Positions 43,126 to 45,064 of a stretch of 64,000 nt of DNA are shown here, piece after piece. The first letter of the stretch is position 1, and each line of letters starts with the position of its first letter. A program made the translations under genes and the position numbers. The notes below the pieces were generated by a model. That model did no database searches. It was not told where the DNA came from and saw only the letters and a list, made by a program, of their open reading frames with translations. Source of the stretch: Gammaproteobacteria bacterium (GTDB taxonomy: Bacteria > Pseudomonadota > Gammaproteobacteria > Magnimaribacterales > AG-339-G14); assembly GCA_003331625.1 (NCBI GenBank), contig QOPF01000005.1, positions 1 to 64,000 on the forward strand, written 5' to 3'.

Positions 43126-43672
43126 AAGCAAGAAGCAAACTAAAAATATTGTTAGAAGAATTATTAATCAAGAGAAACTCATAATATTCAGTCAATGCAT
43201 GTGACCATTCATGTTCAAATTTTAAAGCTTCAGCAGATATTTCTTTCTCAAGAAAATAAAAATCAGTATCCTTTTTGGCTATTAAACTTACTTTTTCTAA
43301 AAGACTTTTCGTTCTCTTGCCGTCAATTTTTGGAGTATGAATTCTTTCGGTTGAAATAATAGTTGATAATTTTTTAAAAAAACTTTTCTCGCTTAATTTG
43401 ACGTAATCACTTTCTTTAATAAGTTTACTTTTAAAAGGGCCATGAAATCCCTTAACTTTATTAAACATAAAATCTGTAATTTGAAAATCAAGCGTTCCTT
43501 TGTCAATAATTCTATTTATTAAAAAAGAATTTTCTCTTTGTTCAATATTGTCTTCGAATGTAAGGTAAACAAAGATTGCTTGACCATGATCATGAAGTCT
43601 CATGGCGTCAATTCCTGAAAGTTTGATATTCAAATTATCAGGAAAGGAGATAATTTTTTTATTTTTTGTCAT
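43118..43672 (-). CDS. Conserved-looking protein of unknown function (184 aa)
   Basis: I do not recognise this protein. It is 184 residues, soluble, with no signal peptide and mixed alpha/beta character: an N-terminal part with D-A-M-R-L-H-D-H-G-Q-A-I-F-V-Y, a basic middle (K-S-L-L-E-K) and a helical C-terminus (F-E-H-E-W-S-H-A-L-T-E-Y-Y-E). The two His-containing stretches might bind metal, but that is only a thought. It overlaps trpS by four bases and the MFS transporter by eight, so it is co-translated with both. The overlaps and regular codon use support a real gene. Confidence 0.8.
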   Translation of the reverse strand: MTKNKKIISFPDNLNIKLSGIDAMRLHDHGQAIFVYLTFEDNIEQRENSFLINRIIDKGTLDFQITDFMFNKVKGFHGPFKSKLIKESDYVKLSEKSFFKKLSTIISTERIHTPKIDGKRTKSLLEKVSLIAKKDTDFYFLEKEISAEALKFEHEWSHALTEYYEFLLINNSSNNIFSLLLAYD

Positions 43673-44652
43673 AAAGCTCTAATTCCTACTAACTCTCTAA
43701 TTCCTTTTAAATTTTCAGTAGCAATATTTAGCGCTTTTGACTCTCCATCTACAAGAATTTCTTCAACTTCTGCAGGATTTTCTATTAGGCTAAGATACTT
43801 TTCTCTATAGTCTCCAATTTCAGAATTAATTAGTTTAAATAATTCTTTCTTAAGATCTCCCCAACTAGCACCATCATCAAATAGATCATCATATTTGTTT
43901 AAATCATCTTTATTGGAGAAACAGTAAAAATACTTGTAAAGAAAAGAATCTCGGGGTTTTTTTTCACCCGGTTCTAAAGAATTAGTTTTAATTTGATTAA
44001 TCTGTTTTTGAAGTTTTTTTTCATTTGAAAACAAATCAATATAATTGTTATAGCTTTTTGACATTTTACTACCGTCTATTCCTGGCAATAAAGGAATTTC
44101 ATTGTCTATTATAGGTTCAGGCAAATTAAAAAAATCTCCATAAGAAATATTAAATTTATTTGCTATGTCTCTAGTCATTTCAATGTGTTGTTTTTGATCG
44201 CTGCCTACCGGTATTAACTTAGCGTTAAACATCAATATATCTGAAGACATCAGTATTGGATAATTATACAAACCCATAAGCACGTTTTTATCCTTATCAT
44301 TTCCTTTGGTTTGATCTTGAATTGCTTTGTAGGCATGCGCCCTATTCATTAAACCTTTAGGCGTAATTGAAGAAAGTATCCAATTCAACTCCATAATTTG
44401 TGGAATGCTTGATTGTCTATAAAAAACTGTATTTTCTAAATTTAATCCGCAAGCAATCCATGCCGCAGCTATAGATAAAGTAGATGCGTGAGTTAGCTTA
44501 GGATCTTGTTGTTTTATAAGTGAATGATAGTCAGCTAAAAAAATAAACGATTCAGTCTCTTGAGATAATTTAATAGCAGGACGCATAGCTCCAATATAAT
44601 TTCCAAGGTGAGGAGATCCATTTGTTGTTATACCGGTTAAAACTGAAGACAT
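43669..44652 (-). CDS. trpS: Tryptophan--tRNA ligase
   Basis: TrpS charges tRNA-Trp. The 327-residue class I synthetase has the HIGH-type motif S-P-H-L-G-N-Y-I-G-A near 13-22, G-S-D-Q-K-Q-H-I-E near 150 for Trp and ATP binding, and the K-M-S-K-S motif in G-S-K-M-S-K-S-Y near 196. Length is normal. The upstream context is odd: a strong terminator hairpin ends only about ten bases before the ATG, and there is no Shine-Dalgarno sequence. A TATACT sequence just before the start could be a -10 element giving an almost leaderless mRNA. It overlaps the next gene by four bases. Confidence 0.95.
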   Translation of the reverse strand: MSSVLTGITTNGSPHLGNYIGAMRPAIKLSQETESFIFLADYHSLIKQQDPKLTHASTLSIAAAWIACGLNLENTVFYRQSSIPQIMELNWILSSITPKGLMNRAHAYKAIQDQTKGNDKDKNVLMGLYNYPILMSSDILMFNAKLIPVGSDQKQHIEMTRDIANKFNISYGDFFNLPEPIIDNEIPLLPGIDGSKMSKSYNNYIDLFSNEKKLQKQINQIKTNSLEPGEKKPRDSFLYKYFYCFSNKDDLNKYDDLFDDGASWGDLKKELFKLINSEIGDYREKYLSLIENPAEVEEILVDGESKALNIATENLKGIRELVGIRAL

Positions 44653-44661
44653 TCACATAGT

Positions 44662-44850
44662 ATAAAAAAAAACACCACATAAGTGGTGTTTTTATATACG
44701 AAGTTAAAGGGGTCTAGTAGGTTGTCTAGCGCAGGCGAATTACCTTTCTCCCTGCAGGTGGCGAAATTTCTTCCGTCTTCTCACCCTTTTCCTTCTGTTC
44801 TTAAGTTTCCCTTCTTCCGTCTCGAGTTAGAAAATCTTTCACTTAAGCTT
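44662..44850 (-). ncRNA. Candidate structured small RNA or trpS leader
   Basis: No protein gene explains this stretch between tRNA-Ser and trpS. It is bounded by a promoter-like pair (44857-44884) and a strong terminator. AAGTGAAAG (44844-44836) can pair with CTTTAACTT (44709-44701), eight of nine positions, closing the RNA ends into a stem. Inside, the purine-rich minus strand repeats ACGGAAGAA twice and CTAGAC twice, has five GGA triplets, and a possible GCAGG/CCTGC stem. It is visibly richer in G/C than the surrounding spacer. It does not match tmRNA, RNase P, SRP, 6S or T-box signatures as I know them. It could be a free sRNA, a CsrA-binding RNA or a leader controlling trpS. Confidence 0.45.
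44664..44690 (-). terminator. Intrinsic terminator just upstream of trpS
   Basis: AACACCAC (44671-44678) and GTGGTGTT (44683-44690) form an 8-bp stem with the loop ATAA. On the minus strand it ends in nine T. It would stop transcripts coming from the tRNA or the candidate RNA about ten bases before the trpS start, so trpS needs read-through, attenuation control or a promoter within the hairpin region. Confidence 0.8.
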
Positions 44851-44856
44851 GAATTT

Positions 44857-44884
44857 ATTTTATGAGTTTTTAGGAAATTTTCAA
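44857..44884 (-). promoter_or_regulatory. Sigma-70-like promoter for the candidate RNA before trpS
   Basis: On the minus strand TTGAAA (44884-44879) and TAAAAT (44862-44857) are separated by 16 bases, one base and one position from consensus in each box. The predicted start near 44850 coincides with the 5' end that pairs with the RNA 3' region. In so AT-rich a genome such boxes arise by chance, so support comes mainly from the position. Confidence 0.45.
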
Positions 44885-44972
44885 TAGGCAAAAAAAGGTT
44901 TTTAAGACTTTGTTTTTATAAAAAATAAATTCTTTATTACAAATTTTAAAAAATAATAAATTCAATGGAATT

Positions 44973-45064
44973 TGGCGGAGGGGGTGGGATTCGAACCCAC
45001 GAGGCCATCGCTGACCTGCCGGTTTTCAAGACCGGTGCATTCAACCAAGCTCTGCCACCCCTCC
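44973..45064 (-). tRNA. tRNA-Ser (anticodon UGA)
   Basis: The minus strand reads as a type II tRNA of 92 bases including an encoded CCA. The acceptor stem pairs GGAGGGG with CCCCTCC, the discriminator is G, the anticodon stem CCGGT/ACCGG holds the loop C-T-T-G-A-A-A with anticodon TGA, a long variable arm follows, and the T arm has GTGGG-TTCGAATC-CCAC. The long variable arm and TGA anticodon define Ser. It lies between the thiolase gene and the candidate RNA before trpS, on the same strand. Confidence 0.97.

Follow-up and report, generated by a model that had tools for sequence, protein, structure and literature searches.

In ocean metatranscriptomes, IMES RNAs count among the abundant RNAs that still lack an explanation, and SAR86 is a common uncultured lineage of the surface ocean. 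Our literature search returned no paper naming IMES-5, none naming IMES-1 together with RNA and marine, and no assigned function. In Rfam, IMES-5 (RF02995) is represented by a nested covariance model, which, compared here on its own, includes neither a loop-loop pseudoknot nor a dimer contact. OLE and GOLLD are structured bacterial RNAs that, as we propose for IMES RNAs, have symmetric kissing loops backed by palindrome switches; they are larger and unrelated in sequence, and their oligomers have been solved, whereas for IMES RNAs we infer them (PMC12286853). Kretsch and co-workers reasoned that switches between self-complementary loop sequences must reflect intermolecular pairing, and GC-to-CG-type switches were used as support for contacts in the solved OLE and GOLLD oligomers (PMC12286853).

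Minus-strand positions 44699–44847 of the window (the whole 64,000-nucleotide stretch of DNA analysed, from a SAR86 genome of 1.09 Mb) matched the IMES-5 model over its full length, model positions 1–150, with a score of 141.3 bits against a gathering cut-off of 96.1 (E 4.5e-28), and the RNA has the same helices as the Rfam family. When the whole window was scanned against Rfam 15, tRNA-Ser and RF02995 were the two matches to exceed the cut-off; at the IMES-5 locus there was also a weak match to IMES-1 (RF02034; 32.9 bits, E 4.6e-5). IMES-5 is present in a single copy in this genome. An earlier note on this DNA had called the RNA unassigned and stated that it matched no RNA family. The hit to a known family, which that note had named beforehand as refuting, overturns both statements; the note's description of a minus-strand RNA that is structured, ends in a terminator, and has a plausible promoter still stands. 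From the sequence match, the locus almost certainly belongs to IMES-5, which is an already catalogued family, here in a SAR86 genome. The features of the locus are as follows.

44973–45064, minus strand: tRNA-Ser(TGA), the upstream neighbour, conserved in the window's own family.
44857–44884, minus strand: promoter-like pair, with –35 TTGAAA at 44884–44879, a 16-nt spacer, and –10 TAAAAT at 44862–44857.
44699–44847, minus strand: IMES-5 RNA (RF02995), with a covariance-model score above the curated cut-off.
44800–44847, minus strand: helix P1, 44841–44847 with 44800–44806; two-sided changes at 6/7 pairs.
44813–44834, minus strand: hairpin P2, 44829–44834 with 44813–44818; two-sided changes at 5/6 pairs.
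44819–44828, minus strand: P2 loop, 10 nt, AACUCGAGAC.
44821–44826, minus strand: self-complementary hexamer CUCGAG in the P2 loop, the proposed symmetric kissing (dimer) site.
44784–44795 (5' strand) and 44700–44711 (3' strand), minus strand: junction-closing helix P3.
44762–44775, minus strand: hairpin P4; two-sided changes at 5/5 pairs.
44730–44756, minus strand: hairpin P5, whose loop has AGGU (44742–44745); two-sided changes at 7/10 pairs.
44712–44729 (approximate span), minus strand: hairpin P7 region, whose loop has ACCU (44719–44722).
44742–44745 with 44719–44722, minus strand: P5-P7 loop-loop pseudoknot, AGGU with ACCU, with covariation.
44660–44693, minus strand: intrinsic terminator, a hairpin at 44693–44668 plus a T run, kept in 27/27 own-family copies.
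43669–44652, minus strand: trpS, the downstream neighbour, outside the RNA gene.

The flanking tRNA-Ser and trpS genes, both on the minus strand, and the terminator hairpin and T run were confirmed as the earlier note had given them. The promoter-like pair is likewise present and places a predicted transcript start near 44850; taken by itself it is no rarer than in shuffled sequence (1 found, 0.8 expected), and across the 27 copies of the window's own SAR86 family (f1) the best pair at this place averaged 8.6 of 12 versus 6.9 in shuffled flanks. Gene order (tRNA-Ser, IMES-5, trpS) was the same in 27/27 of these own-family copies. A terminator lay 3' of all 27 f1 IMES-5 copies and of the 50/50 IMES-1 copies tested; by the same rule, 5/21 IMES-5 copies of the sister family (f2) had a simple terminator and none was found in the other 16/21. 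On these sequence features the RNA would be about 170–190 nt long, with its own promoter and, in f1, its own intrinsic terminator, both predicted. A 183-nt stretch folds better than its shuffles (–48.5 kcal/mol, z –2.9). Also present are the repeated words noted earlier, ACGGAAGAA and CTAGAC with two copies each, and the five GGA triplets. P7 has one CUAG arm in each CTAGAC copy, and of the ACGGAAGAA copies one forms an arm of P2 and the other an arm of P4.

For the secondary structure we used an alignment (A1) of 46 distinct IMES-5 sequences, with the Rfam helices and one added loop-loop helix; it was built from sequence and represents P7 poorly across families. Together these helices were paired in 85.3% of cells, a count that related sequences inflate, and two-sided changes occurred at 29/47 pairs, a number that 0/500 shuffles reached and that compares with 9–18 when partners were slid. 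The helices are thus conserved with covariation. P7 had two-sided changes at 3/5 pairs, in a helix poorly aligned between families. By contrast with these variable pairs, 9/10 pairs of P3 were invariant and 99.8% of its cells in A1 were paired. P3 and three segments of the junction (GGGUGARAAG, CCACC, and GAC) belong to the most constant parts of the RNA, and few unpaired segments are as well conserved as the P2 loop. The earlier note had proposed a pairing of the RNA ends (44836–44844 with 44701–44709, eight of nine positions), which exists in the window sequence and is not conserved: across the 46 distinct relatives, 49.8% of cells pair versus 48.3% in shuffles. We therefore rejected this end-to-end stem as a fortuitous pairing that competes with P1 and P3, both of which are conserved.

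The added helix is a P5-P7 pseudoknot. In A1, 98.9% of its cells were paired and two of its pairs were compensated, one of them by the window's own A-U replacing G-C; most IMES-5 relatives have GGGU/ACCC at this site. RNAalifold selected the same four pairs unprompted. The corresponding loops of IMES-1 pair GAGA with UCUC, a contact that is longer in some copies (GAAGA/UCUUC in one) and shrinks to three pairs, GAG/CUC, in two f2 copies; the mean Watson-Crick run between these loops was 4.3, versus 2.3 for shuffled loops. The covariation supports this pairing, through which P5 and P7 would lock the 3' junction, and the pseudoknot is a new addition to Rfam's nested IMES-5 model.

SAR86 has a second IMES family, IMES-1, which from sequence appears to be homologous to IMES-5. 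The IMES-1 model matches IMES-5 (E 4.6e-5), and the IMES-5 model weakly matches the IMES-1 RNAs of f2. Both RNAs have a 5' stem with a palindromic loop, a loop-loop contact at the corresponding place, and the junction segments GGGYGAAAG, CCACC, and GAC, which are common to the two. IMES-1 differs in its length of ~190 nt, its helix sequences, the GAGA/UCUC form of the contact, its genome location, its sometimes tandem arrangement, and its CUGCAG hexamer in families without IMES-5.

Among 151 genomes of the order, IMES-5 was found in 48, all f1 or f2, and IMES-1 scored above its cut-off in 86, belonging to f2 and to two further SAR86 families (f3 and f4). Neither RNA was found outside the order in 274 genomes of the class, three of which are in the order. 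Named genomes scanned with a pattern gave SAR86 records together with scattered unrelated ones. A laxer search of the f1 and f2 genomes without IMES-5 found no member, and nearly all of these genomes also lack a close trpS match (in two, trpS lies close to the end of a contig); because trpS is mostly missing too, the absences are best read as assembly gaps. Many f1 and f2 assemblies (for example G019, G027, and G047) have no recognisable trpS or IMES-5, and the region seems gap-prone. Where f2 genomes carry both RNAs on one contig, IMES-5 and IMES-1 lie ~14 kb apart on opposite strands, as at loci L074 (G005:C1:825000-842500) and L085 (G029:C2:44000-62500). Some f3 genomes (L041, L039) have tandem IMES-1 copies ~320 bases apart, both with CUGCAG.

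The P2 loop displays a hexamer that was self-complementary in 134/135 of the IMES-5 and IMES-1 copies in which it was read, a count that leaves out two records lacking the 5' end and one low-scoring match to a non-homologue. It reads CUCGAG in 47/48 IMES-5 copies and in 28/28 f2 copies of IMES-1, and CUGCAG in 59/59 f3 and f4 copies of IMES-1 whose hexamer was read; the sole exception, an f2 IMES-5 copy (G033), has CUAGAG. Rfam places the IMES-1 hexamer in a larger loop. Self-complementarity has thus been kept through a change of sequence, between two states that may be separated by one switch event. Because the switch between CUCGAG and CUGCAG fits the logic applied to OLE and GOLLD, IMES RNAs may pair symmetrically as loop-loop dimers, and by this analogy copies of IMES-5 may join through P2 kissing loops. 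The two states are split by lineage, so the switch was possibly a single event; because the change may have occurred only once, the hexamer evidence is suggestive rather than strong.

The explanation that we favour, with moderate confidence, is a stand-alone IMES-5 gene for a two-domain, pseudoknotted RNA that dimerises and whose junction core binds a partner. The 5' domain would be the P1/P2 stem-loop, with an apical loop showing the self-complementary hexamer, and the 3' domain would be a multi-helix junction, closed by the near-invariant P3 and locked by the P5-P7 pseudoknot. Such an RNA would act as a folded structural RNA, not as an antisense RNA. Two IMES-5 copies, or one IMES-1 and one IMES-5 where both exist, would join via the P2 kissing loop. 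We infer that a partner binds at P3 and the junction because few parts of the RNA vary so little; the junction core (GGGUGARAAG, CCACC, GAC), itself conserved, would then be the binding surface, and the partner is probably a protein. By sequence comparison, IMES-1 and IMES-5 could form a superfamily of RNAs shorter than 200 nt that make palindromic-loop dimers, with possible mixed dimers in the family that has retained the two RNAs, a proposal on which we are evenly balanced. An IMES-1/IMES-5 superfamily with a pseudoknot and a predicted dimer makes an unexplained family testable in vitro. Our analysis separates IMES-5 from trpS, gives evidence against a Csr role, links IMES-1 to IMES-5 as apparent homologues, and adds the pseudoknot and a testable dimer proposal; the labels of trp attenuator and Csr sponge, tempting as both are, fall away.

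The conservation of the P2 loop, which ranks it among the best of the unpaired segments, would also be expected if IMES-5 were a monomeric trans-acting RNA whose loop pairs with palindromic sites in target RNAs, or if the palindrome were an operator in the DNA. Dimeric regulators often bind palindromic DNA, a point in favour of the operator. A fixed target or operator, however, would preserve the sequence of the hexamer and not its self-complementarity through a two-base switch, and the hexamer shared by the two f2 RNAs is consistent with their pairing to each other. In addition, this genome has no Hfq match and no ProQ match, and Hfq had no match in the 61 SAR86 genomes searched, which argues against a classical Hfq-dependent antisense sRNA. 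We regard a monomeric RNA or an operator as unlikely, and as the most serious competitor to a dimerising structural RNA.

Distinctly less probable is the proposal of the earlier note that IMES-5 is a sponge of the CsrB/RsmZ type, in which GGA motifs sequester and titrate CsrA. CsrB/CsrC and RsmY/RsmZ are, like IMES-5, stand-alone gammaproteobacterial RNAs, and the IMES-5 host encodes CsrA; they differ in having enriched or fully conserved GGA motifs, which IMES-5 lacks. We mapped CsrA across this genome (csrA at G000:C7:83541-83690) and 150 relatives. CsrA was confined to the two families that carry IMES-5 (f1 and f2), and the f3 and f4 genomes, which have IMES-1 only, all lacked it; this co-presence, however, tracks one family split and may reflect ancestry alone. 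All five GGA triplets of the window lie in an ANGGA context, against 2.1 in shuffles. Four results speak against GGA-mediated titration. First, the mean number of GGA triplets was 3.2 in f1 and 4.1 in f2, versus 4.3 and 4.6 in dinucleotide shuffles, so that they are no more frequent than composition predicts. Second, some copies have just 1–2 GGA, and the best GGA column was filled in 27/48 copies, with no position occupied in all. Third, the IMES-1 RNAs of f3, which has no CsrA, contain 5.3 GGA. Finally, no Rfam family of the CsrB/RsmZ type was among the matches up to E 10.

The same note had also suggested an attenuator-type leader, that is, a cis-acting element of trpS, and the arrangement in the window invites this reading: in 48/48 IMES-5 copies trpS is found downstream with the same orientation, immediately next in f1, and the T run of the window's terminator ends ~11 bases short of the trpS ATG. 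In f2, however, trpS starts ~640 nt further downstream in 21/21 copies and the RNA structure is kept, so that IMES-5 is not directly upstream in a trpS transcript there. In the f2 locus that was read throughout, the two are separated by an ORF on the opposite strand, which by inspection of its sequence we take to resemble a 2'-5' RNA ligase (ThpR). The homologous IMES-1 adjoins unrelated genes. Because the f2 trpS lies ~640 bases on, behind an opposite gene, we reject the attenuator, which has very little chance of being correct, and from gene order we are highly confident that IMES-5 is an independent gene.

A replacement for 6S RNA, which IMES-5 recalls in its similar size, its predicted own promoter, and its one copy per genome, can be dismissed for practical purposes, as 139/151 SAR86 genomes have a separate 6S match (in this genome at G000:C6:12494-12665), RF00013 gave no match at the IMES-5 locus up to E 10, and the IMES RNAs fold as a multi-helix junction. 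At 42.5 bits, the 6S match of this genome falls short of the Rfam cut-off of 46.4, as do those of many SAR86 genomes, and this cut-off seems to miss the 6S RNA of SAR86.
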